Shown here piece after piece: positions 25,548 through 44,917 of a stretch of DNA of 64,000 bases. Each line of letters opens with the position of its first letter. Positions within the stretch are counted from its first letter, which is position 1. Under the pieces are notes generated by a model, which worked only from the letters and a program-made list of their open reading frames with translations, had not been told where the DNA came from and made no database searches. The position numbers and the translations under genes are program-made. Source of the DNA: Phenylobacterium sp. Lineage in GTDB: Bacteria > Pseudomonadota > Alphaproteobacteria > Caulobacterales > Caulobacteraceae. Location: contig NZ_JAUYNW010000059.1 of assembly GCF_030698145.1 (NCBI RefSeq), positions 62,001 through 126,000 on the forward strand, given 5' to 3'.

Positions 25548-28003
25548 GCGGGGGCGAACTCCAGACGGCGGCTGAGCGGGTTGAACTCTTCGGCATGCCG
25601 GCCGGCCACCCGCTCGGCCCAGGGGTCGATGCGGGAAAAGCGCTGCGAATAGGCAAAGCGGTCGTAGAGGGCGCGGCGGTTCTCCGGGTCCTCGATCTCG
25701 GCCTGGATCGAGGCCAGACCGACCCGGTCCATCCACTTGTAGATCCGCTCCAGGTACCAGCCACGCTCACGGTAGAGCTGGGTGACGGCGCAGATGGTCC
25801 AGATCGCCTCCTCTTCGGTGGCGACCTTGGTGAGGATCTCTGTGCCGCGGATGTGCAGGCCGGCGGCGCCGCCGATGTGGATTTCGTAGCCGCTGTCGAC
25901 GCAGATCACGCCGATGTCCTTGCAGGTCGCCTCGGCGCAGTTGCGCGGGCAGCCGGAGACGCCGAGCTTGACCTTGGCCGGGGTCCAGGACCCCCACATG
26001 AACTTCTCCAGCCGCACGCCGAGGCCGGTGGAGTCCTGGGTCCCGAACCGGCACCACTCCGAGCCGACGCAGGTCTTCACCGTGCGCAGGCCCTTGGCGT
26101 AGGCGTGGCCGGAGACCATGCCCGCGGCGTTGAGGTCGGCCCAGACGGCGGGCAGGTCGTCCTTCTTGACGCCCAGCAGGTCGATGCGCTGGCCGCCGGT
26201 CACCTTGACGGTGGGGATCTGGAACTTGTCGGCCACGTCGGCGATGGCGCGCAGTTCGTTGGGGGTGGTCACGCCGCCCCACATGCGCGGCACGACGGAA
26301 TAGGTCCCGTCCTTCTGGATGTTGGCGTGGACCCGCTCGTTGATGAAGCGACTCTGCTTGTCGTCGCGATAGTCGCCAGGCCAGGCGCAGAGCAGGTAGT
26401 AGTTGAGCGCCGGTCGGCAGGACGAGCAGCCGTCGGGCGTATGCCACTCCAGCGCCTGCATGACCGCCGGCGTGGACTTCAGGCTCTCGGCCAGGATGCG
26501 TTTGCGCACCTCGTCGTGGCCGTGCTGGGTGCAGCCGCAGACCGGCTTGGGACCCGTCTGGGCCTCGAAGCCGTCACCCAGGGTGAGCTGCAGCAGTTGC
26601 TCGACCAGCGGCGTGCAGGAGCCGCAGGAGGCCGAGGCCTTGGTGTGGGCGCGCACGCCGTCGAGGGTGGTGAGGCTCAGCTCGGCGATGGCGCCGGTGA
26701 TCGCGCCCTTGCAGACGCCGTTGCAGCCGCAGACCTCTTGCGAGTCCGGCATCGCCGCAACGGCCGACCTAGGGTCCACCCCCCGAAGGGCCTCCGTGAT
26801 CGCCTGGCCGAAGATCAGGGTGTCGCGCACATCGGCCACATCGGCCCCGCTGCGCATCAGGTCGAAGTACCAGCCGCCGTCGGCGGCGTCGCCGAACAGC
26901 ACCGCCCCGGCCACCTTGCCGTCCTCGATGACCACGCGCTTGTAGACGCCTCGCCCGGCGTCGCGGAACACCACGTCCTCGCAGCCCTCCCCGCCGCCAA
27001 ACTTGCCGGCCGAGAACACGTCGACGCCGGAGACCTTCAGCCGGGTCTGCAGCAGCGAGCCCTCATAGGTCGCGTCCGATCCCGTCAGCACCTCGCCCAG
27101 CGTGCGGCACATGTCCCAGATGGGCGCCACCAGGCCATAGGCGACCCCGCGATGCTCGGCGCACTCGCCGATGGCGAAGATGGCGGGATCGGAGGTGCGC
27201 ATCTGGTCGTCGACCACCACGCCCCGGCCGCAGGTGATCCCGGCGGCGGCGGCCAGGCCCGTAGCCGGCCGAATGCCGACCGCCATGACCAGGATGTCGC
27301 CGGGGATGACCGTACCGTCCTTCAGTTTCAGGCCGGCGACCCGGCCGTCCTTCTCCAGGATCGCTTCGGAATGGGCGCCCAGCACCGTCTCGACGCCGCG
27401 CTCGGCCAGGGCTTCGCGCAGCAGGAAGCTCGCCGATTCGTCGAGCTGGCGCTCCATCAGCACATCCATCAGGTGGATGACGGTCGCGGCCATGCCGCGG
27501 CGGACCAGGCCATAGGCGGCCTCCAGGCCCAGCAGGCCGCCGCCGATGACGATGGCGCGGCCGCCCTTCTCGGCGGCGGCGACCATGGCCTCCACGTCGT
27601 CCAGGTCGCGGAAGGTGACGACGCCTTGCAGGTCCGCGCCCGGCAGGGGCAAGCGGACCGGATCGGAACCGCAGGCCAGGATCAGCCGGTCATAGGCGAC
27701 GCTCAGCCCGCCCTCGGCCTCGACGACCTTGGCGGTTGGGTCGATGCTGGTGACCTTGCGGCCGGAATGCAGGGTGATGGCGTTGTCGGCGTACCAGGCC
27801 AGATCGTTGATGACGATCTCGTCGAAGGTCTTCTCCCCAGCCAGGACCGGCGAGAGCATGATGCGGTTGTAGTTCACCCGGGGCTCGGCGCCGAAGACGG
27901 TGATGTCGTAGCGCGTCGGATCGCGCTTCAGCACCTCTTCGATGGCGCGGCACCCGGCCATCCCGTTGCCGATAACGACCAGACGTTGCTTAGGCTGGGA
28001 CAT
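25544..28003 (-). CDS. nirB: NADH-dependent assimilatory nitrite reductase large subunit
   Basis: 819 aa from ATG 28003 with GAGAGGGCG immediately upstream. Domain order: FAD/NAD(P) pyridine-nucleotide reductase (V-V-I-G-N-G-M-A-G at the N-terminus, V-I-G-G-G-L-L-G-L-E-A-A-Y near residue 150), two BFD-like [2Fe-2S] segments (C-G-C-N-G-V-C-K-G with S-C-G-S-C-T-P-L; C-G-C-T-Q-H with S-S-C-R-P-A), then the siroheme/[4Fe-4S] sulfite/nitrite reductase core with C-V-G-S-E-W-C-R-F-G and G-C-P-R-N-C-A-E-A-T-C. It reduces nitrite to ammonium with six electrons from NADH. First gene of the nirB-nirD-nasA-cobA operon, preceded by an RNA hairpin leader (28090-28129). Confidence 0.96.
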   Translation of the reverse strand: MSQPKQRLVVIGNGMAGCRAIEEVLKRDPTRYDITVFGAEPRVNYNRIMLSPVLAGEKTFDEIVINDLAWYADNAITLHSGRKVTSIDPTAKVVEAEGGLSVAYDRLILACGSDPVRLPLPGADLQGVVTFRDLDDVEAMVAAAEKGGRAIVIGGGLLGLEAAYGLVRRGMAATVIHLMDVLMERQLDESASFLLREALAERGVETVLGAHSEAILEKDGRVAGLKLKDGTVIPGDILVMAVGIRPATGLAAAAGITCGRGVVVDDQMRTSDPAIFAIGECAEHRGVAYGLVAPIWDMCRTLGEVLTGSDATYEGSLLQTRLKVSGVDVFSAGKFGGGEGCEDVVFRDAGRGVYKRVVIEDGKVAGAVLFGDAADGGWYFDLMRSGADVADVRDTLIFGQAITEALRGVDPRSAVAAMPDSQEVCGCNGVCKGAITGAIAELSLTTLDGVRAHTKASASCGSCTPLVEQLLQLTLGDGFEAQTGPKPVCGCTQHGHDEVRKRILAESLKSTPAVMQALEWHTPDGCSSCRPALNYYLLCAWPGDYRDDKQSRFINERVHANIQKDGTYSVVPRMWGGVTTPNELRAIADVADKFQIPTVKVTGGQRIDLLGVKKDDLPAVWADLNAAGMVSGHAYAKGLRTVKTCVGSEWCRFGTQDSTGLGVRLEKFMWGSWTPAKVKLGVSGCPRNCAEATCKDIGVICVDSGYEIHIGGAAGLHIRGTEILTKVATEEEAIWTICAVTQLYRERGWYLERIYKWMDRVGLASIQAEIEDPENRRALYDRFAYSQRFSRIDPWAERVAGRHAEEFNPLSRRLEFAPA

Positions 28004-28089
28004 CGCCCTCTCCGTCTTGGGCTCCACGATGCGCGGAGCGACAAACTGTTCGGATGGACGCCTTTGCCCGGACTGGCCCGACCGGGCCT

Positions 28090-28129
28090 CGGCTCGCAAG
28101 AGCCGGGTGGCGAAACCTCGTTGTTTCGC
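28090..28129 (-). promoter_or_regulatory. Two-hairpin RNA leader of nirB, ANTAR-type first loop
   Basis: In the transcript, GCGAAAC pairs with GTTTCGC around the hexaloop AACGAG (28110-28129): A at loop position 1 and G at 4, the pattern bound by ANTAR proteins. After a 4-nt linker comes CGGCTC/GAGCCG around TTGC (28090-28105), whose loop does not fit the A1/G4 rule. The pair lies 87-126 nt upstream of the nirB start. No U-tract terminator was found between it and nirB; a GC-rich inverted repeat (GGCCC/GGGCC) follows. Confidence 0.6.
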
Positions 28130-29472: not shown

Positions 29473-29567
29473 ACGCTCTGGATCTCGCGCCGGGGAGGCG
29501 GCGCTGGGTTGCGGTGTTGGCGGATCGTCCAGAGCGTCCTGGAGACCCACGCCGCCGTTGGCGTGGG
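29473..29567 (-). promoter_or_regulatory. narK RNA leader: ANTAR-type hairpin plus ribosome-site-masking alternative stem
   Basis: First hairpin: CCCACGCC/GGCGTGGG (8 bp) around hexaloop AACGGC (29546-29567), with A1 and G4. Two nt later comes TCCAG/CTGGA around GACGCT (29528-29543). A 10-bp inverted repeat competes with this second hairpin: ACGCTCTGGA (29528-29537) can pair with TCCAGAGCGT (29473-29482), which ends 3 nt before the narK ATG and covers its only plausible Shine-Dalgarno (AGAGCG). No T-run is present, so control may be translational. Confidence 0.6.
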
Positions 29568-29654
29568 CGAAACGGCTCGCCGAATAGGCGCCATCTACGC
29601 CCCGGCGCCCGCTCCTGTGGCGCCTTCCCCTAGCTTGGCCGGAGATTCGATGCG

Positions 29655-29697
29655 GATTTGCGCAAAGATGCGGCGCCATACCTTCGCACTTGCACAA
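29655..29697. promoter_or_regulatory. Conserved block upstream of the narK leader
   Basis: Shares with 36098-36141 the order TTTGC - AA - GATG - GGCGCCAT - 13/14 nt - GCACAA. The GGCGCCAT core is identical and lies 105 bp (here) or 102 bp (porin) from the outer edge of the ANTAR-type hairpin. A promoter or activator site is likely. It does not have correct sigma-54 spacing. Confidence 0.45.
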
Positions 29698-29750
29698 AAA
29701 TGGGCGCCGGGGCTGGACAGCCGCCTTGCGATGACGGCTCAGCGACAGGG

Positions 29751-31448
29751 ATGGAAACCCACGCGACCAGCCTGCGCGTCCTGACCGGCCTCGCTAGCGA
29801 GACCGGCCGGCGTGAGCGCAATGAGGATTTCGCCGCTGCGGTGCTGGAGCCGCCGGGGCGGATGACCGGCGTCGCCTGCGCCATCGCCGACGGAATGGGC
29901 GGGGCGAAGGGCGGGCGAGTGGCGGCCGAGCTCAGCGTCCGCGCCATGCTGGACGGCTATCTCGGGGCCAGCGAGACCCGCAGCGTCCGGCGCACCGCCG
30001 CCCACGCCGTCGACTGCATCAACCGTTGGGTCCACGCGCAGGGACGAACCGACGCCAATCTGGCTGGCATGGGCTGCACACTGACGGCGGCGATCCTGCG
30101 CGGGCGGCGGCTGCATGTGCTGCACGTGGGCGACACCCGGCTCTACCGGCTGCGCGACGGACGGATGGCGCGGCTCACGGCCGATCATCGGCTGGAGGGC
30201 ACGACCAATGTCCTGACCCGCGCCGTCGGCCTCCAGGAAAGCCTGCGCATCGACTACGCCAGCGAGGATCTGGCGCCGCACGACCGGCTGCTGCTCGTCA
30301 GCGACGGGGTCCACGGGGTCCTGCCCGACCGCCGGATCGAGGAGCTGTTGGCCGAGCGCGCCGGCCCTGACGAGACCGCCCGGCGCCTGGTGCAGGCCGC
30401 GCTGGAGGCCGGATCCGATGACAATGTCACCGCCCTGGTGGTGGACGTCCTGGAACTGCCGGCCGCCGACGTGGCGGGCCTGACCCAGGAGGTCGAGGCC
30501 CTGCCCATGCGCGCGCCGCCCGCAGTCGGCGAGCGGGTCGATGGGTTCGAGCTTCAGGCCCTGGTGGCCGACGGCCGCTACAGCCGCGTGTTCCGGGCCT
30601 TGGACAGCGAGACCGCCGCCACCGTCCTGGTCAAGTTTCCCAAGCCCCAGGCGCTGGGAGCCGAGGCCTCGGCCCGGGCGGCCTTCCTGCGCGAGTCCTG
30701 GGTGGCGAGCCGGGTGCAGAACCCCTTCGTCGGCGCCGTGCTCGACCTGCCCCTGGGCCGGCGCACCAGCCTCTACCTCGTCCAGCCGTTCTACGCGGGC
30801 GAAACCCTTGAGCGGCGGCTGTCGCGGTCTCCGCCGGTCAGCCTCGACCAGGGCCTCGACATCGCAATCAAGCTGACCAAGGCCATCGCCTCGCTTCATC
30901 GGGCCGGCGTCATCCATCGCGACATCAAGCCCGAGAACGTGATCCTGGAGCCGGGCGGCGGCCTGAAACTGATCGACCTGGGGGTGGCGCGCCTGCCGAA
31001 CCTGGAGGCCTCCCCGCCCCCGGACATCCCCGGCACGCCGAGCTACATGGCGCCGGAGCTGTTCGCCGGCGTCGGCGGCGACGAACGGTCCGACATCTTC
31101 GCGCTGGGCGTGACGCTCTATGCGATGTTCTCGGCCGGCCGGTATCCCTACGGCGAGATCGAACCCTTCACGACCCCGCGCCATCGCCGGCCGACCCCGC
31201 TCTCGGCCTGGCGGCCCGACCTTCCGGCCTGGGTGGAGACGGTGCTGGCCCGCGCCGTGGCGGTCGATCCGGCTGAGCGGTTCCAGGACGGGTTCGAACT
31301 GGCCTTCGAGCTGGAGAACGGCGCGATAAGGGGCGCGCCGGCCCGCCGGACGCGCCCCTCGCTCTACGACCGCGACCCGCTGCGCTTCTGGCAGGTCGCC
31401 GCCCTTGTTCTGCTGGTGCTGCTGCTGATCTCCCTCGCCAGACCCTAG
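29751..31448 (+). CDS. Bifunctional PP2C-type phosphatase / Ser-Thr protein kinase, membrane-anchored
   Basis: 565 aa from ATG 29751. N-terminal PP2C domain (about residues 8-245): R-N-E-D-F, A-D-G-M-G-G, V-G-D-T-R-L, V-S-D-G-V and D-D-N-V-T-A-L supply the metal-binding aspartates. C-terminal Hanks-type kinase (about 265-520): V-L-V-K-F-P lysine, H-R-D-I-K-P-E-N catalytic loop, D-L-G in place of D-F-G, G-T-P-S-Y-M-A-P-E. It ends with one membrane helix (VAALVLLVLLLISLA). It is inserted between narK and the nrt operon, and such fusions recur in nitrate-assimilation clusters, so a role in nitrate signalling is likely but the target is unknown. Its stop shares CTAG with nrtD. The start is uncertain (AGGG abuts the ATG); earlier in-frame starts exist at 29700 and 29658. 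Confidence 0.86.
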   Translation: METHATSLRVLTGLASETGRRERNEDFAAAVLEPPGRMTGVACAIADGMGGAKGGRVAAELSVRAMLDGYLGASETRSVRRTAAHAVDCINRWVHAQGRTDANLAGMGCTLTAAILRGRRLHVLHVGDTRLYRLRDGRMARLTADHRLEGTTNVLTRAVGLQESLRIDYASEDLAPHDRLLLVSDGVHGVLPDRRIEELLAERAGPDETARRLVQAALEAGSDDNVTALVVDVLELPAADVAGLTQEVEALPMRAPPAVGERVDGFELQALVADGRYSRVFRALDSETAATVLVKFPKPQALGAEASARAAFLRESWVASRVQNPFVGAVLDLPLGRRTSLYLVQPFYAGETLERRLSRSPPVSLDQGLDIAIKLTKAIASLHRAGVIHRDIKPENVILEPGGGLKLIDLGVARLPNLEASPPPDIPGTPSYMAPELFAGVGGDERSDIFALGVTLYAMFSAGRYPYGEIEPFTTPRHRRPTPLSAWRPDLPAWVETVLARAVAVDPAERFQDGFELAFELENGAIRGAPARRTRPSLYDRDPLRFWQVAALVLLVLLLISLARP

Positions 31449-32236
31449 GCTGCCACTGCGTGGCGGGCGTAGAGGAACTCCAGCACCGACTTGCGGGCGC
31501 GCAGGTAATCGAGGTCGGTGGCCAGCTCCAGCCGCTGGCGCGGCCTTGCCAAGCCCACGCTCAGCACCTCGCCGATCGTCGCAGCCGGGCCGTTGGTCAT
31601 CATCACGATGCGGTCCGACAGCAGGGCCGCCTCATCGACGTCGTGGGTGATCATCAGCACCGTGTTCTTCAGCTTGGCATGGATCTCCATGACGCTGTCC
31701 TGCAGGTGGGCACGGGTGAGCGCGTCCAGGGCGCCGAAGGGCTCGTCCAGCAGCAGCACCTTGGGCTGGATGGCCAGCGCCCGGGCGATGCCGACCCGCT
31801 GCTTCATGCCGCCGGAAATCTCCGAGGGGCGCTTGTCGGCAGCGTGGGTCATCTGGACGAGCGCCAGGTTCTCCATCGCCCAGGCGTGCCGCTCGCGGCC
31901 GTTCTTCTTGCCGCGGAACACCTTGTCCACCGCCAGCCGGACGTTCTCGTAGACCGAAAGCCATGGCAGCAGAGAGTGGTTCTGGAACACCACCGCCCGG
32001 TCGGGACCCGGCGCCTCAACCGCCGAGTGGTCGAGGATCACCGCTCCGGTGGTGATGGGCACGAGACCGGCCACCACGTTCAGCAAGGTCGACTTCCCGC
32101 AGCCGGAGTGGCCGATGATCGAGACGAACTCGCCCTCGTCGATCTGCAGGTTCACATCGCGCAGCACCTCGTTGGCGCCGGTGCGGCCGGGGAATGAGAC
32201 GCCGAGCGCCTCGATGGAGAGGAAGGCCTTGGGCAT
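31445..32236 (-). CDS. nrtD: Nitrate ABC transporter ATP-binding protein
   Basis: 263 aa. ATPase of a nitrate/taurine-type ABC importer: Walker A G-H-S-G-C-G-K-S-T-L-L, Q-loop V-F-Q-N-H-S-L-L-P-W, signature S-G-G-M-K-Q-R, Walker B V-L-L-L-D-E-P-F-G-A-L-D, and the switch histidine in M-I-T-H-D-V-D-E-A. There is no C-terminal NrtC-like sensor domain. Third cytoplasm-facing partner of nrtA and nrtB, 12 bp after nrtB. AGGA precedes the ATG. Confidence 0.93.
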   Translation of the reverse strand: MPKAFLSIEALGVSFPGRTGANEVLRDVNLQIDEGEFVSIIGHSGCGKSTLLNVVAGLVPITTGAVILDHSAVEAPGPDRAVVFQNHSLLPWLSVYENVRLAVDKVFRGKKNGRERHAWAMENLALVQMTHAADKRPSEISGGMKQRVGIARALAIQPKVLLLDEPFGALDALTRAHLQDSVMEIHAKLKNTVLMITHDVDEAALLSDRIVMMTNGPAATIGEVLSVGLARPRQRLELATDLDYLRARKSVLEFLYARHAVAA

Positions 32237-32248
32237 GTCCTGTTCCTT

Positions 32249-33151
32249 CTAGGAGAGCGCCGAGCCGCGGCTGACGATGCGTCCCAGCAGGGCCACGGCG
32301 CGGTCCAGCGCGAAGCCCACCAGGCCGACCCAGATCAGGGCGACGACGATGTCGGAGATGCGAGACGAGTTGTACTGGTCCCAGATGAAGAAGCCGACGC
32401 CGACCCCGCCAAGCAGCATCTCGGAGGCGACGATGGCCAGCCAGCTCATGCCGACCCCGATGCGCAGGCCCGTGAAGATGTAGGGCGTGGTGGCCGGCAG
32501 CAGGATCTTCCAGAAGTGCTCCAGCGGCGAGAGGCTGAGCGTCCGGCTGACATTCACATAGTCGGTCGGGATGTTCCGCACCCCGACCGCGGTATTGATG
32601 ATGATCGGCCAGATCGAGGTGATGAAGATCACGAACAGCGCCGAGGGCTGAGCTTCGCGGAACGCGGCCAGCGAGATCGGCAGCCAGGCCAGGGGCGGCA
32701 CGGTGCGCAGCACCTGGAACAGCGGGTCGAGTCCGCGATGGGCCCACACATTGGCCCCCACCAGAACGCCCAGCGCGATGCCGACCACGGCGGCCAGGCC
32801 GAAGCCCACCCCCACCCGGCTGAGGCTGGTGAAGACGTGCCAGAACAGGCCCTTGTCGACCCCGCCATTGTCGAAGAAGGGGTCGAGGATCAGATCCTTG
32901 GATTCCAGCCAGATCATGCTGGGCGCCGGCAGGCCGGCGCCGTCCCCGGCCAGGAACTGCCAGAGGCCGAGCAGGATCAGCAGCATGACGACCGGCGGCA
33001 GGACCCCCGCCGCGACCGCCTTGGCGGCGCTCAGGGCGCGGGTCGCCCGCGACGGTCCCGGCGTGGGGAGCCGGGTGATCATCGCGGGCGCGAGGCTCGC
33101 CGGCGGCTCGACTTCGCCGGCGATCTCGAACTTTTGCGCGGGCAGGCTCAT
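32249..33151 (-). CDS. nrtB: Nitrate ABC transporter permease
   Basis: 300 aa, six membrane segments after a ~50-residue soluble N-terminus. BPD_transp_1/NrtB-type permease with the coupling-loop region S-L-S-P-L-E-H-F-W-K-I-L-L-P-A-T-T-P-Y-I-F-T-G-L-R-I and the nitrate-permease stretch P-P-L-A-W-L-P-I-S-L-A-A-F. Forms the inner-membrane channel for nitrate. GGAG lies 6 nt before the ATG; 25 bp after nrtA. Confidence 0.92.
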   Translation of the reverse strand: MSLPAQKFEIAGEVEPPASLAPAMITRLPTPGPSRATRALSAAKAVAAGVLPPVVMLLILLGLWQFLAGDGAGLPAPSMIWLESKDLILDPFFDNGGVDKGLFWHVFTSLSRVGVGFGLAAVVGIALGVLVGANVWAHRGLDPLFQVLRTVPPLAWLPISLAAFREAQPSALFVIFITSIWPIIINTAVGVRNIPTDYVNVSRTLSLSPLEHFWKILLPATTPYIFTGLRIGVGMSWLAIVASEMLLGGVGVGFFIWDQYNSSRISDIVVALIWVGLVGFALDRAVALLGRIVSRGSALS

Positions 33152-33176: not shown

Positions 33177-34448
33177 TCAGACCAGCTTCTTGATCGGCTG
33201 GCTGGCCAGGTAGGCGGCCGGGTTCGCAGGATCGAAGACCTTGCCGTCGAAGAACCGCTCGATGCCGCGGCTGTCGGAAGCCGGCGCCGCGGCCCCGAGC
33301 GACTTGGCCGCCGCCCGCCAGATGTCGGCGCGGTTAACCTTCGCCACCAGGGCCGCGGCGTTGGTGTTCTTGGGTATGACGCCCCAGCGCTGGTTCTCGG
33401 TCACGAACCAGAGGTCGTGCGATTTGAACGGGAAGGAGGCGTTGTCGGCCCAGAACTTCATGAAGTGGCTTGAGCCCTTCACCGAGCGGCCGTCGCCGTA
33501 GTTGATAGTTCCCTGCAGCCTCGGCAGGATGTCGCCCATCGGCACGTTGATGTACTGGCGGCCCGAGACGATGGAGCACATGGCCGCCTTGTTGGCCGCC
33601 TTGTCGCACCACATCTGGGCCTCCATGACGGCCATGGTCAGCGCCAAGGCCGCGCGCGGATACTTCGCCACCCAGTCGGCCCGCATCCCCAGCGCCTTCT
33701 CCGGGTGGTTCATCCAAATCTCGGAGGTCAGGCAGGCGGTGTAGCCGACCTTCTGGTTCACGAGCTGGCCGTTCCAGGGTTCGCCCACGCAGAAGGCGTC
33801 CTGGGTGCCGGCCTTCATATTGGCCACCATCTGCGGCGGCGGGATCACGATGGTCGAGACCTCGGTCTCGGGATTGATGCCGCCCGCCGCCAGCCAATAG
33901 CGGAGCCACAGGTCGTGGGTCCCGCCCCGGAAGGTCATCGCGACCTTGGCGATGTTGCCAGCCGCCTTCATCTGGGCGAACTTGGCCTTGGCGCCGGCGC
34001 TGTTGAGGCCCACCTTCACCGCCTTCAGGTCGTTGCCGACCGAGATCCCCTGGCCGTTGGTGTTTAGCCGCGCCAGGATGTTCATCGGCAGGGGCCGGCC
34101 GCCTGTCGCGACGCCGGTCGTGAACTGGTAGGGCATGGGCGACAGGATGTGCGCGCCGTCGATGCCGCCGCCCCCGGAGCCCAGGACTAGGTTGTCCCTA
34201 GTGCCGCCCCAAGAGGCCTGCTTCAGCACCTCGACGTCGGGCATGCCGTACTTGGCGAACAGGCCCCGCTCCTTGGCGATGATCAGGGGCGAGGCGTCGG
34301 TCAGGGCGATGAAGCCCAGCCTGGCTTTGGCGACCTCGGGACCCGCGCCGGCGGCGTGGGCTCCTGACGGGAACGCGGTCTTGGCGGCGAGGAGGGTGGC
34401 GGCCGCGGCGGTCAGGGCCCCACGGCGGGTCAGGTTCTTGTCGGTCAT
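33177..34448 (-). CDS. nrtA: Nitrate-binding periplasmic protein of ABC transporter, Tat-exported
   Basis: 423 aa. NrtA/CmpA-type solute-binding protein. N-terminus L-T-R-R-G-A-L-T-A-A-A-A fits a twin-arginine signal, ending G-A-H-A-A-G. Then K-A-R-L-G-F-I-A-L-T-D-A-S-P-L-I-I-A-K-E-R-G-L-F, the family's opening, and G-G-I-D-G-A-H-I-L-S-P-M-P-Y; the E-P-W-N-G-Q-L-V stretch is shared with the sensor NasS in this window. It captures nitrate in the periplasm for NrtBD. ATG 34448 gives the signal peptide at the very N-terminus. It follows the porin gene by 8 bp, so it is in the same operon. Confidence 0.93.
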   Translation of the reverse strand: MTDKNLTRRGALTAAAATLLAAKTAFPSGAHAAGAGPEVAKARLGFIALTDASPLIIAKERGLFAKYGMPDVEVLKQASWGGTRDNLVLGSGGGGIDGAHILSPMPYQFTTGVATGGRPLPMNILARLNTNGQGISVGNDLKAVKVGLNSAGAKAKFAQMKAAGNIAKVAMTFRGGTHDLWLRYWLAAGGINPETEVSTIVIPPPQMVANMKAGTQDAFCVGEPWNGQLVNQKVGYTACLTSEIWMNHPEKALGMRADWVAKYPRAALALTMAVMEAQMWCDKAANKAAMCSIVSGRQYINVPMGDILPRLQGTINYGDGRSVKGSSHFMKFWADNASFPFKSHDLWFVTENQRWGVIPKNTNAAALVAKVNRADIWRAAAKSLGAAAPASDSRGIERFFDGKVFDPANPAAYLASQPIKKLV

Positions 34449-34456
34449 GGAATCCG

Positions 34457-35878
34457 TCACAGCTTGTATTCGAGGGTGAACCACACCTTGGTGCGGGAGG
34501 GCGGAGGGGCAGCCCCGCCCACGGGGACGAAGGCCTCGCGCTTGAAGTCGGCGTATTTCAGCGCCACCGAGAGCTTGGGCGTGACCGCCGCCTGGACCTG
34601 GACGTTCCATTCCCGGCCGAGATCCGCGCCCGTCCGCTGGGCGTCGAAGTCGTGGTAGCGGACGATGATGTCGGTGTTGAAGAGGTAGGTCCGCCGGAAC
34701 CGCGGCTTGACGTTGAGGCTGACGTTCAGGTCCTCGATCCCGTCGACGAAGCCCTTGTTCCCGCCCAGCGGCTGGACGAAGGCGTCCGACCAGCCCTGGA
34801 AGGCGTGGACGGTGGCCAGCGGCGTGGTGAAGCCGCGGGTTCCGTTCCCCTCCAGCGACTCCCAGGAGAGCTTGGCCGTGTAGATGTCGAAGGTCCCCGC
34901 GACATCGGCGCCCACATAGTCGAGATCGTAGGCCGCGGTGTTGCCGTTGTAGTCGCTCTGGGTCGCGTAGGTGGCGTTGTAGGCCACCTGGAACAGGCCG
35001 ACCCAGGTCTTGCCCGAAGCCTTGACCCCCTTGGTCACCGAGGAGTTCGGCGCCGAGTTCTGGAAGTCGAGGGCGTAGACGAAGCCCTGGAGGCGCAGGG
35101 CCTCGGCCGGCGACCAGGTGGCGTTCAGCAGGTGGCTGTCGCTATCCCAGTCGCGCAACTCGCCAAGGATGCGGTTGATATGGGTCACATAGGCATAGGT
35201 CGCCTTGAAACGGCCCAGCGCCAGGTCGGCGCGCACCGCGTCGAAGGTCTGTTCGTCCTGGCGCCAGCCGACATTGCCGACGAAGCGCTGGTCGTCGATC
35301 AGGATCCGCTGGCGGCCTAGGGTGAAGATGGCCGCGGCGCTGGGGGTCCAGGTGAGCTGCAGGCGGTTGAGCTCGGTGACGTCCGGATCGTTGATGATCG
35401 GGAAGCGCGCCTTGTCGGCGCCGTTCAACGGCGGCGTCGCCGCGCCAGGCACATTGACCGCGAACCGCTCCGAGCCGACCTGGCGGACATCCTCGAACTC
35501 CACCAGGCCCCGCAGGCCGTTCCAATCGGCGGTCTCCCAGCCGAGCCGGGTGCGCAGGGTCAGGGCCTCGCCTTCGTCGCGCAGGGTCGCTGTCCGGGTC
35601 TGGTCGACGCCCTCATAGCGGAGCCTAGCCTCCAGGAGCAGCTTGCCGCCCGCGATGGCTTCGCTGATGGTCGGCGGCGCAGGCGGAGGCGGAGGCGGAG
35701 GCGGTTCCGGCGCCGGTTCGGGCTCGGGCTCCACGACGGCCTCGGTCGGCTCTTCGGCCGCGACGGCCGGGGCCTCCTCGACCGCCGCCGTGGGCGGGGC
35801 CTGGGCCGCCGCCCCTGTTGCTGTAACCAGCGCCGCGGCGATCACCGCAGGCGCCAGGACACCGTTCCTCATGTTCAT
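34457..35878 (-). CDS. Outer-membrane porin, alginate-export (AlgE-like) family, in the nitrate operon
   Basis: 473 aa from ATG 35878, signal peptide ending A-A-A-Q. A ~45-residue Ala/Glu/Pro-rich spacer follows, containing E-P-E-P-E-P and a run of eight prolines, probably a periplasmic or wall-interacting linker. Then comes a beta-barrel with many aromatic-ended strands resembling the alginate_exp family (L-L-L-E-A-R-L-R-Y-E, G-R-Q-R-I-L-I-D-D-Q-R-F-V-G-N-V-G-W-R-Q-D-E-Q-T-F-D-A) and a C-terminal V-W-F-T-L-E-Y-K-L. As first gene of porin-nrtA-nrtB-nrtD, it is inferred to be the nitrate entry porin despite the family name. Its leader carries an ANTAR-type attenuator. Confidence 0.85.
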   Translation of the reverse strand: MNMRNGVLAPAVIAAALVTATGAAAQAPPTAAVEEAPAVAAEEPTEAVVEPEPEPAPEPPPPPPPPAPPTISEAIAGGKLLLEARLRYEGVDQTRTATLRDEGEALTLRTRLGWETADWNGLRGLVEFEDVRQVGSERFAVNVPGAATPPLNGADKARFPIINDPDVTELNRLQLTWTPSAAAIFTLGRQRILIDDQRFVGNVGWRQDEQTFDAVRADLALGRFKATYAYVTHINRILGELRDWDSDSHLLNATWSPAEALRLQGFVYALDFQNSAPNSSVTKGVKASGKTWVGLFQVAYNATYATQSDYNGNTAAYDLDYVGADVAGTFDIYTAKLSWESLEGNGTRGFTTPLATVHAFQGWSDAFVQPLGGNKGFVDGIEDLNVSLNVKPRFRRTYLFNTDIIVRYHDFDAQRTGADLGREWNVQVQAAVTPKLSVALKYADFKREAFVPVGGAAPPPSRTKVWFTLEYKL

Positions 35879-35897: not shown

Positions 35898-35940
35898 AAA
35901 AAAAAGACGTCCGCCGGGGTGGGAGCCCCGCGCGGACGTC
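35898..35940 (-). terminator. Rho-independent terminator inside the porin leader
   Basis: GACGTCCGC and GCGGACGTC form a perfect 9-bp stem, extended by CGGGG/CCCCG around a 6-nt loop, then eight T in the transcript (35898-35905). It lies 20 nt before the porin ATG, so it must be bypassed for expression of the whole operon. Confidence 0.9.
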
Positions 35941-36013
35941 GTTGTCCTTCCAGTCCGAAACCGTGCGGTATCGGCGGTCCTTTCGGACCTGCTGCGGGAC
36001 GCCATTGTCCCGC
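35898..36013 (-). promoter_or_regulatory. ANTAR-responsive attenuator leader of porin-nrtABD
   Basis: Reading the transcript 5' to 3': hairpin P1, GCGGGAC/GTCCCGC around hexaloop AATGGC (35994-36013); a middle stem, GTCCGAAA/TTTCGGAC (35953-35988), which could instead fold as GGTCC-GAAA-GGACC; hairpin P2, GGAC/GTCC around hexaloop AACGAC (35934-35947). Both P1 and P2 loops have A1 and G4. P2 uses bases of the 5' arm of the following terminator, so only one of the two can form. It matches the two-hairpin antiterminator bound by NasR/NasT-type ANTAR proteins. Confidence 0.75.
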
Positions 36014-36097
36014 GATGTCGTGATCAGGCCGCCACGGGCGCCGCACCCTCGCAACTGCGAAATGGCGAATATTGCCGTTCCCTCATCGTCCAGACGT

Positions 36098-36141
36098 GTT
36101 TTGCATCAAGGATGGGCGCCATTGTGCAGTGCAGCGCACAA
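36098..36141. promoter_or_regulatory. Conserved block upstream of the porin leader
   Basis: Partner of the block at 29655-29697 (TTTGC, AA, GATG, identical GGCGCCAT, GCACAA). It also contains an imperfect dyad GTGCAGTGCAGCGCAC. It lies between the nasS stop and the leader, so it is probably the promoter/activator region of the operon. Confidence 0.45.
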
Positions 36142-36164: not shown

Positions 36165-37409
36165 TCAGGAGCGCATTCGGCCGATGGCGAAGCCAGCCGC
36201 GTAGCGCTCGGGCTGGGCGGCGTCGAACCGACCGCCGTCGAAAAACAGGTCCGGCGCCATGGGGATCGGCGCTGTGGCCTCGTCCAGGGTCCAGGGCGAG
36301 GCGTGCAGGCCCTCGACCTTCTCGTCCACCAGCGGCGCGGGCGCCCCCAGCTCGGCGGCGGCGGCGCGGAACAGGTCGGGGCGATAGACCGCCTCCGCCG
36401 TCCCGGCGATGTCGGCCTCCGGACCGATCTGACCCCAGCGCAGCATCTGGGTCATGAACCAGACCGCATGGCTGCGCCACGGAAAGCTCGCGGCGTAGCG
36501 GTGGTAGATGATGTAGTCCTGATGGTCGGGCCCAGGCTCGCCCAGGGCGTAGGGCGGCGCACCGGTCAGCGAGCGGGCGATCACCTCCTCCGGTGCGTCC
36601 ACATAGCGGCTATGAGCCAGGATGGCGGCCAACTCGGCCCGGTTGCCCGGTTCGTCGGACCAGGCCGCGGCGCGGATCAGGGCGCGCAGGGTCGCGCTCA
36701 CGGTCAGCGGGTGGCGCTCGGCGAACCCCTCTGTCAGGCCGAACACCTTGTCGGGGCCCACGCCCCACAGCTCGGCGGCATAGACCATGATCTCGCCATA
36801 GCCGTCGGCGACGGCCAGGGCGTTCCAGGGGGCGCCGACGCAGAAGCCGTCGATGTCGCCGGCGGCCAGGCGCGCGGCCATGCGCGCGGGCGGGGTCACG
36901 ACGATGCGCAGGTCCCGGTCCGGATCGAGGCCGGCTTCCGCCAACCAGTAGCGCAGTTCGTAATTGTGCACCGAGAACGGGAACACCACGGCGAAGGTCA
37001 ACAAGGGCAGGCCCTGCGCCTTGCGCTCGGCGACGACCTTGGTCAGTGGCCGGGCGGTGCGGGGCCGGACGGTCATGCCCTGCGCATCGGCTATGCGCAT
37101 CGCATCGGCCAGGGCCGTCGAGACCGTGATCGCGCTGCCGTTCAGATTTAGCGACATGGGGGCGATCATCCGCGCCGGCTCGCCGCAGACCCCGAGCCGC
37201 ACGGCCAGAGGCATGGGCGCCAGCATGTGGGCGCCGTCCAGGGCTCCCATCGCCACCTTGTCGCGGATATTGGCCCAGGACGCCTCACGCGACAGGTCGA
37301 CCGACAAGCCCTCGGCCTCGAAGAACCCCTTCTCGCGAGCCACCACCAGCGGCGCGCAGTCGTTCAGCGCGATGAAGCCCAGCCGAAGCTGCGTCCGCTC
37401 CAGGCTCAT
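36165..37409 (-). CDS. nasS: Nitrate/nitrite sensor NasS (cytoplasmic NrtA-like protein)
   Basis: 414 aa, homologous throughout to the NrtA-type binding protein at 33.2-34.4 kb (L-R-L-G-F-I-A-L-N-D-C-A-P-L-V-V-A-R-E-K-G-F-F, L-D-G-A-H-M-L-A-P-M-P, C-V-G-A-P-W-N-A-L) but beginning directly at the first beta strand with no signal peptide, so cytoplasmic. In the known NasS-NasT pair, NasS holds the ANTAR protein NasT until nitrate or nitrite is bound. Start overlaps the nasT stop by ATGA, supporting 1:1 expression of the complex. Confidence 0.92.
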   Translation of the reverse strand: MSLERTQLRLGFIALNDCAPLVVAREKGFFEAEGLSVDLSREASWANIRDKVAMGALDGAHMLAPMPLAVRLGVCGEPARMIAPMSLNLNGSAITVSTALADAMRIADAQGMTVRPRTARPLTKVVAERKAQGLPLLTFAVVFPFSVHNYELRYWLAEAGLDPDRDLRIVVTPPARMAARLAAGDIDGFCVGAPWNALAVADGYGEIMVYAAELWGVGPDKVFGLTEGFAERHPLTVSATLRALIRAAAWSDEPGNRAELAAILAHSRYVDAPEEVIARSLTGAPPYALGEPGPDHQDYIIYHRYAASFPWRSHAVWFMTQMLRWGQIGPEADIAGTAEAVYRPDLFRAAAAELGAPAPLVDEKVEGLHASPWTLDEATAPIPMAPDLFFDGGRFDAAQPERYAAGFAIGRMRS

Positions 37410-37990
37410 GATCGGTCCCCCTTCAAGACGCCCGCGAAGGTGAGCAGGTCGGTGGCCACGGCCCCGATCGACCGGCCGGTGTCCATGGCGAGCTTGCGCA
37501 GCAGCGCATAGGCCTGGTCCTCGTCGATGCCGCGCTCCTTCATCAGCAGGCCCTTGGCGCGCTCCACGGACTTGCGCGAGGCGAGGTCGGACTTGGCCTT
37601 GTCGAGGTCGGCGCGCAGCTTCTGCATCAGCTCGAAGCGGCTCATGGCCACCTCCAGCACCGAGCGCACCCGCCCGGCCGACAGTCCGTCGACCACATAG
37701 GCCGCCACCCCCGCCTCCACCGCCGCCTCCGCCAGGCCCGGCGAGGAGCGGTCGACGAACATCACCACCGGGCGCGGATTGTCGGAGGTCGCTTCACGCA
37801 GGCTTTCCAGGGTGTCGCGGTCGGGGCTGTCGCAGGCGATGACGATCACGTCCGGGGCGAAGGACGGAAGCTCGCCCTCGATGGCCTCGAAGCTGGACGC
37901 GCGGCGCACCTCGAGCGGGCGCACGTCCGCCAGCCCTTCGGCGACCAGGGCGGCCCGCGCCTCGTCCGGATCGATGATGATAACCTTCAT
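37406..37990 (-). CDS. nasT: ANTAR-domain transcription antiterminator NasT
   Basis: 194 aa from ATG 37990. N-terminal receiver-like domain (M-K-V-I-I-I-D-P-D-E, V-I-V-I-A-C-D, V-M-F-V-D, A-Y-V-V-D) followed by a coiled-coil and the ANTAR RNA-binding helix bundle: D-L-A-S-R-K-S-V-E-R-A-K-G-L-L-M-K-E-R-G, then D-E-D-Q-A-Y-A-L-L-R-K-L-A-M. It binds two-hairpin leaders and prevents termination. Candidate targets are the leaders at 28.1, 29.5 and 35.9-36.0 kb. A longer upstream frame overlaps the regulator next door and is rejected. Confidence 0.94.
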   Translation of the reverse strand: MKVIIIDPDEARAALVAEGLADVRPLEVRRASSFEAIEGELPSFAPDVIVIACDSPDRDTLESLREATSDNPRPVVMFVDRSSPGLAEAAVEAGVAAYVVDGLSAGRVRSVLEVAMSRFELMQKLRADLDKAKSDLASRKSVERAKGLLMKERGIDEDQAYALLRKLAMDTGRSIGAVATDLLTFAGVLKGDRS

Positions 37991-44908: not shown

Positions 44909-44917
44909 GGCTGGAGC

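Follow-up and report, generated by a model that had tools for sequence, protein, structure and literature searches.

The operon for a nitrate porin and an NrtABD importer in this Phenylobacterium sp. is preceded by a leader that is very probably a transcription attenuator operated by NasT. The leader lies in a stretch of 64,000 nt (the window), and the assignment is drawn from its sequence and from analogy with known systems. The hairpins, the mutually exclusive pairing of the second hairpin (P2) and a terminator, the co-variation and the synteny with nasTS are read from the sequence and its comparison with relatives. By its hairpins, loops, exclusive terminator and cognate protein, the leader belongs to the ANTAR/NasT attenuator group; it departs from the group in its spacing.

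The genes on the minus strand are ordered nasT, nasS, leader, porin, nrtA, nrtB and nrtC/D, and then narK, nirB, nirD, nasA and cobA, as follows.

37406..37990, minus strand: nasT, response-regulator/ANTAR protein (profile match over the Pfam ANTAR cut-off)
36165..37409, minus strand: nasS-like nitrate sensor (PDB relatives NrtA/CmpA)
34457..35878, minus strand: outer-membrane porin-like protein, the first gene downstream of the leader (Pfam Alginate_exp; ATG at 35878)
33177..34448, minus strand: nrtA-like nitrate-binding protein (NMT1_2)
32249..33151, minus strand: nrtB permease (TIGR01183 over cut-off)
31445..32236, minus strand: nrtC/D ATPase (TIGR01184 over cut-off)
29469-28255, minus strand: narK, farther along from the porin-nrt group
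ATG at 28003, minus strand: nirB, downstream of narK; then nirD, nasA and cobA

The leader is directly 3' of nasS, with the nitrate uptake genes downstream of it. This is the arrangement of a NasS–NasT regulon, where nasS and nasT adjoin the target operon and nitrate genes follow. The original prediction had put NasT 1.4 kb away from the porin-nrtABD leader, and nasT was confirmed at that distance upstream. The genes nirD, nasA and cobA carry names presumed from their sequences, and the same applies to a large ORF on the plus strand (29658-31448, between nrtD and narK), which looks like a fusion of a phosphatase with a protein kinase. Elsewhere in the window, a perfect 13-bp hairpin with the loop ACGGCG was seen at 44909 (minus strand), close to where the ORF at 44835-43369 starts.

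NasT was the sole ANTAR match in the assembly (90.8% complete). It resembled solved antiterminators, including EutV and NasR, in a structure-database comparison. The EutV residues R142, E160 and Y164, which hold the G at loop position 4 (G4) (PMC8934654), aligned with an R, an E and a Y of NasT, with the numbering offset by two and the correspondence judged by spacing.

The leader was composed of the following elements.

35994..36013, minus strand: P1, the distal hairpin, GCGGGAC-AAUGGC-GUCCCGC, a hexaloop with A at position 1 (A1) and G4 (fold and co-variation)
35976..35989, minus strand: spacer hairpin H2, GGUCC-GAAA-GGACC, 5 bp with a GAAA tetraloop (fold)
35955..35974, minus strand: spacer hairpin H3, CCGAUACC-GCAC-GGUUUCGG, 7 bp with one U-U mismatch, nearest P2
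35934..35947, minus strand: P2, GGAC-AACGAC-GUCC, a hexaloop with A1 and G4
35906..35940, minus strand: intrinsic terminator stem-loop, 9 bp, one bulged G and 5 bp (fold)
35898..35905, minus strand: U-run, eight T

P1, P2, the 9 + 5 bp terminator and the eight T were all recovered by sequence and fold at the positions claimed earlier. The claim that P2 and the terminator exclude each other also held, since the 3' arm of P2 and the 5' arm of the terminator are identical bases. Thus, as in other ANTAR dual-hexaloop leaders, two A1/G4 hexaloop hairpins are present, the second is exclusive with an intrinsic terminator, and a cognate ANTAR protein is encoded in the genome. The 128-nt leader folded better than 200 of 200 dinucleotide shuffles (z of -4.24). 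In a pattern scan of both strands, a pair of A1/G4 hexaloop hairpins with a T-run after it was found at one site only in 64 kb, and a comparable motif in 2/60 shuffled windows. The probability that the motif arose in the window by chance is thus small without being zero, and it is conservation that provides the strong evidence. No Rfam family reached its curated threshold anywhere in the window, and the sole sub-threshold match around the leader was to the antisense-RNA family ctRNA_pGA1 (25.1 bits; threshold 45). A simple terminator scan missed the terminator of the leader, whose stem-loop is longer and bulged.

The proposed mechanism follows these elements. Without nitrate, NasS would hold NasT, the bases common to P2 and the terminator would go into the terminator, and RNA polymerase would stop 19 nt before the porin ATG. 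Nitrate would release NasT, which would bind the G4 hexaloops of P1 and P2, and the two spacer hairpins would bring P1 near P2 across 46 nt. NasT-bound P2 would stay folded, and the polymerase would read through. Nitrate sensing, NasT binding and read-through are here inferred from work on NasT and EutV in other species. For instance, nitrate dissociated NasS–NasT in Paracoccus denitrificans, and NasT bound the nasA leader (PMC3795266). The layout is the same there, with nasTS followed by a hairpin leader and a nitrate assimilation operon (PMC3795266, PMC5424462), whereas the operon here is for porin-nrtABD uptake, and a two-hairpin spacer separates the G4 hairpins. The OFF fold was computed to be 11.6 kcal/mol more stable than the P1 + P2 fold; therefore, NasT would have to act during transcription. 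Furthermore, the U-run is only 19 nt from the porin ATG, and transcription from upstream therefore has to pass the terminator.

For the comparison with relatives, 299 family genomes were searched for NasS, with a match in 111, and for 90 of these the sequence downstream of nasS was inspected (30 loci and 60 regions). Among the 90, 24 entered the alignment A1, 4 had other T-run leaders (L133, L140, L144 and L154, left out of A1 for a different P2), 55 had narK leaders of another kind, and 7 had no usable leader (L094, L110, L132, L141 and L159-L161). In L086 and L087, the distal hairpin was taken as P1 for alignment and not the middle hairpin chosen by the script. Over the 24 Caulobacteraceae leaders, 94.9% of the 431 cells of P1 and the terminator were paired, compared with at most 53.4% in slid controls. 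Changes on both sides were found in 31 cells, against 12.2 in shuffles (0/500), and both sides changed in some sequence at 4/9 P1 pairs and 3/9 terminator pairs. G4 was present in 24/24 P1 loops, as required by the search pattern, while position 1 was A in 20 and G in 4. The P2 stem was invariant in the 24, but the pattern required P2 and its invariance is hence uninformative. Outside the 24, L144, L154, L201 and L207 had AGAC/GUCU in place of GGAC/GUCC in P2, with a matching change in the 3' arm of the terminator (both read by eye); therefore, both alternative pairings are kept. The compensatory changes anticipated in the original prediction were accordingly present, in P1 and the terminator over the 24 leaders and in the P2 arms of the four others.

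A covariance model was built from 26 leaders, with pairs given for P1 and the terminator only. At E <= 0.01, it matched 46 of the 385 genomes searched in the class. This search was strand-blind; the antisense of the terminator also scored and was disregarded. Of 29 fetched loci that were not the model's own, the best 12 (E <= 3e-6) all adjoined nitrate genes, and several of these 12 showed three G4 hairpins. The other 17 did not adjoin nitrate genes, and matches weaker than about 1e-5 were therefore taken as chance.

A leader that directly follows nasS could also be a plain intrinsic terminator of the nasTS transcript, since a terminator is expected after nasTS; the hairpins would then be incidental, and the porin operon would have its own NasT-independent promoter. 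This explanation is very improbable. A promoter would hardly fit into the 19 nt between U-run and ATG, P1 and the spacer are conserved and co-vary, and both P1 and P2 carry G4 hexaloops. Moreover, L183 and L192 have the same layout upstream of narK, at a site apart from nasTS.

The spacer is the unusual part of the attenuator. It had been described as a single 8-bp helix, longer than published linkers; the length claim stood, but the 46 nt in fact contain two hairpins. The spacer measured 40-56 nt in 19/24 leaders, and the others were L089 (37 nt), L136 (35 nt), L153 (27 nt), L088 (23 nt) and L156 (8 nt). According to the minimum free energy fold, at least two spacer hairpins were present in 18/24, one in five (L084, L088, L089, L136 and L153, where the fold of L084 merges both spacer hairpins) and none in L156. 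The mean z of the spacer fold was -3.1 over 23 testable leaders, with L088 and L153 not unusual. In the 18 leaders and the narK leaders L183 and L192, the gaps were 0-4 nt after P1, 0-2 nt between the hairpins and 7-12 nt before P2, and the first spacer hairpin had a GNRA loop in 10/20. The spacer columns of A1 were aligned too loosely to be counted, and for H2 and H3 the individual arms were compared instead. When arms were swapped among relatives, pairing fell to 70% for H2 and 49% for H3; own pairing is 100% by construction, and only this fall and the range of pair types are informative.

The linkers of ANTAR leaders have been studied in other systems. The search definition in PMC3369931 specifies a variable linker and sets no length, and 46 nt falls within it. 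The Enterococcus EutV antiterminators likewise carry a pair of A1/G4 hexaloop hairpins, of which the second and the terminator exclude each other (PMC3369931, PMC8934654). However, the linkers of the eut leaders span 5-12 nt, and lengths of 3 or 14 nt were harmful (PMC3369931), and the addition of 20 nt abolished antitermination by EutV in vitro (PMC8934654), while the relatives of the present leader often have a third G4 hairpin. In the EutV structure, each ANTAR domain takes one hexaloop and the hairpins are bound in turn, with a strict linker limit (PMC8934654). Curated actinobacterial linkers are 2-25 nt (PMC8164766). The 46 nt of the porin leader exceeds all of these lengths; the short linker is a property of the studied ANTAR cases and not of the definition. 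The failure of EutV antitermination at a 14-nt linker or with 20 nt added counts against the 46-nt reading (PMC3369931, PMC8934654). It is a speculative suggestion that the two hairpins form a folded spacer that brings P1 close to P2.

A third hexaloop hairpin was frequent among relatives. The script gave 53 candidates with P2 and a terminator, by a choice that favoured at least one upstream purine-1/G4 hairpin. At least one such hairpin was found in 49/53 (8.2 in shuffles), this one being favoured by the choice, and at least two within 95 nt before P2 in 26/53, where shuffles predicted 0.6; a few second hairpins were weak or outside the spacer (L083, L156). When a further hexaloop hairpin of at least 5 bp was sought with no loop condition, 32/53 had one. 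Position 4 of these loops was G in 24/32 (12/16 in the family and 12/16 elsewhere), and position 2 was A in 22/32. With a background of one-third, 24/32 gives a binomial value of 1.4e-6, which is too small since the sequences are related. Within the family, 11/25 terminator-type leaders had a second purine-1/G4 hairpin inside the spacer besides P1. The porin-type leaders thus look like three-hairpin arrays in many relatives, and, as judged by sequence, the middle hairpin of the porin leader (H3) has kept its stem and lost the G4 loop found in many of them. The original assignment of an ANTAR attenuator before porin-nrtABD was supported by comparison, with the amendment that P1 is better described as the distal member of an array that, in many relatives, has three hairpins. 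The base-specific contact of EutV is with G4 only, and A1 is not contacted (PMC8934654), in keeping with the occurrence of G at loop position 1. In addition, NasT freed from NasS forms oligomers (PMC3795266), which would suit several hairpin sites.

The middle hairpin raises the possibility that NasT acts on P2 and H3 as the usual short-linker pair, with P1 merely an extra that recruits or stabilises. Across the 20 spacers with two hairpins, 7-12 nt separate H3 from P2, a distance within or near the eut range, and the purine-1/G4 hexaloops inside family spacers point the same way. Nevertheless, we consider this pairing somewhat unlikely, since the H3 loop in the window and in the near relative L002 (by eye) has no G4 and P1 keeps it, and since L156 has no H3 and its P1 is 8 nt from P2.

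The P1–P2 attenuator was not the only candidate target of NasT in the window. Hairpins with a stem of at least 7 bp and the loop A[AC][ACT]G[AG]N occurred three times, in the leaders of the porin, narK and nirB. Their number is not rare (mean of 1.4 in shuffled windows; at least three in 8/60); it is their places, in the 5' regions of nitrate transcription units, that stand out. The elements of the two additional leaders were as follows.

29546..29567, minus strand: narK leader hairpin CCCACGCC-AACGGC-GGCGUGGG, A1 and G4
29529..29542, minus strand: narK leader second hairpin CCAG-GACGCU-CUGG, G1 and G4
29473..29482, minus strand: narK leader UCCAGAGCGU, just before the ATG, pairing with ACGCUCUGGA (29537-29528) in the minimum free energy fold
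28110..28129, minus strand: nirB leader P1-like hairpin GCGAAAC-AACGAG-GUUUCGC
28056..28069, minus strand: nirB leader P2-like hairpin GGGC-AAAGGC-GUCC
28004..28014, minus strand: nirB leader CGGAGAGGGCG, before the ATG, pairing with GUCCAUCCG (28059-28051) in the minimum free energy fold

The narK leader (29473-29567) had two hexaloop hairpins 3 nt apart and no terminator, and the 10-bp helix that it forms with the pre-ATG site overlaps the second hairpin. Four genomes aligned here with 84% mean column identity; the relatives had a mismatch in the first hairpin, and G292 kept only part of the long helix. The nirB leader (28004-28129) repeated the porin-leader series of P1, two intervening hairpins and P2, but lacked a U-run. 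Its P2 3' arm lies within GUCCAUCCG, which is predicted to pair with the ribosome-site strand CGGAGAGGGCG. This leader was kept in five genomes (the window, G695, G163, G292 and G043). MAFFT misaligned the 5' half of two distant nirB rows, and the comparison was thus made by eye: the letters of P1 change on both sides among relatives and still pair, and the ribosome-site helix is different and of equal strength in G043 and weaker in G292 (-9.1 kcal/mol). The alternative helix over the ribosome site suggests NasT-activated translation of narK and nirB, and NasT probably acts on these leaders as well, via translation and not termination. The target set claimed earlier is therefore incomplete: porin-nrtABD was supported by comparison, and the regulon likely also has the narK and nirB leaders.

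Similar hairpins were studied in narK leaders across the family. The alignment A2 contained 69 narK leaders of another type, namely 61 starts minus six (the window, L009, L013, L019, L022 and L087) plus 14 added. An A1/G4 hairpin was present in 69/69, where the pattern required A-A-C/U-G. A second hexaloop hairpin was found in 64/69, 63 of them with G4, and in 32 it was the same loop, shared by close relatives. The first hairpin's 5' arm, together with bases upstream of it, pairs with the pre-ATG site. In 34 cluster representatives, the energy was -13.7 kcal/mol for own pairing and -12.5 kcal/mol for swapped pairing; own pairing beat the row mean in 25/34, and 1/20,000 permutations was as good, a small gain in a test that clades inflate. 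L087, L183 and L192 had narK with a terminator-type leader instead, so the same gene carries either output. As a side observation, L095-L111 and others had a Caulobacter-type narK leader without a U-run, in which about 115 nt before narK were near-identical between species.

It may still be that the narK and nirB hairpins are due to chance or belong to another regulator, and that the porin leader alone belongs to NasT. Besides the unremarkable number of hairpins, the fold energies of both leaders were not unusual (z of -1.3 for narK and -1.2 for nirB) and gave no support, and the covariance model placed the nirB leader fourth in the genome, with an E of 0.017. The locus G000:C80:95411-95472 (L195), on another contig, scored slightly above it (E of 0.0145). 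The positions before nitrate transcription units argue against chance, as do the retention of both leaders in relatives, the changed yet pairing letters of nirB P1, and the G4 hairpins with a matching ribosome-site helix shared by the family narK leaders. Overall, we judge the chance explanation unlikely.

Translational control of terminator-less matches has already been suggested (PMC3369931). Actinobacterial ANTAR-target RNAs that overlap the ribosome site are, like the narK and nirB leaders, terminator-less and near the start codon (PMC8164766). However, protein binding represses translation there, whereas in narK and nirB the ribosome site is covered by the competing helix and not by the ANTAR hairpin, and binding should activate. 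The NmPAL riboptoregulator works in this direction, with an aptamer-bound protein that frees a sequestered Shine-Dalgarno sequence (PMC11381354); it is engineered and light-driven, and in narK and nirB such control would occur naturally. Bradyrhizobium narK has predicted NasT hairpins, yet it was up in a nasT mutant (PMC6759348), and therefore the direction of regulation is not to be assumed. In Caulobacter, NtrC peaks were reported at nasT and narK (PMC10274813).

A similar sequence, TTGTGC...ATGGCGCC..CATC.TTG..GCAAA, was seen upstream of the porin and narK leaders (36070-36135 and 29640-29710, minus strand), and it is perhaps a shared promoter or an NtrC-type site. A sigma-54 reading of this sequence was dropped because of wrong spacing (by eye).

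A broader model can be offered tentatively, at slightly less than an even chance. In this model, proteobacterial NasT leaders would commonly be arrays of three G4 hexaloops with G or A at position 1. In Caulobacteraceae, they would have two interchangeable outputs, a terminator (porin, some narK) or a ribosome-site helix (narK, nirB), the latter giving natural ANTAR-activated translation, and the window would hold one regulon with three leaders and both outputs. Three-hexaloop NasT leaders and NasT-activated translation were not found in searches of open-access literature on ANTAR and NasT, and earlier genome-wide lists may include some of these leaders.

A NasT antitermination leader is of a known kind, and the new part is the anatomy, with its long two-hairpin spacer. 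For the question of how two hairpins serve an ANTAR dimer, conserved folded spacers of 40-56 nt, the 8 nt of L156, and leaders whose P2 is preceded by one hairpin or by two provide a natural series that bears on the linker limit and the role of the third hairpin. Around the porin leader, the sequence indicates a plausible two-output regulon. If the narK and nirB predictions are true, one nitrate-released protein would control uptake by termination and reduction by translation.
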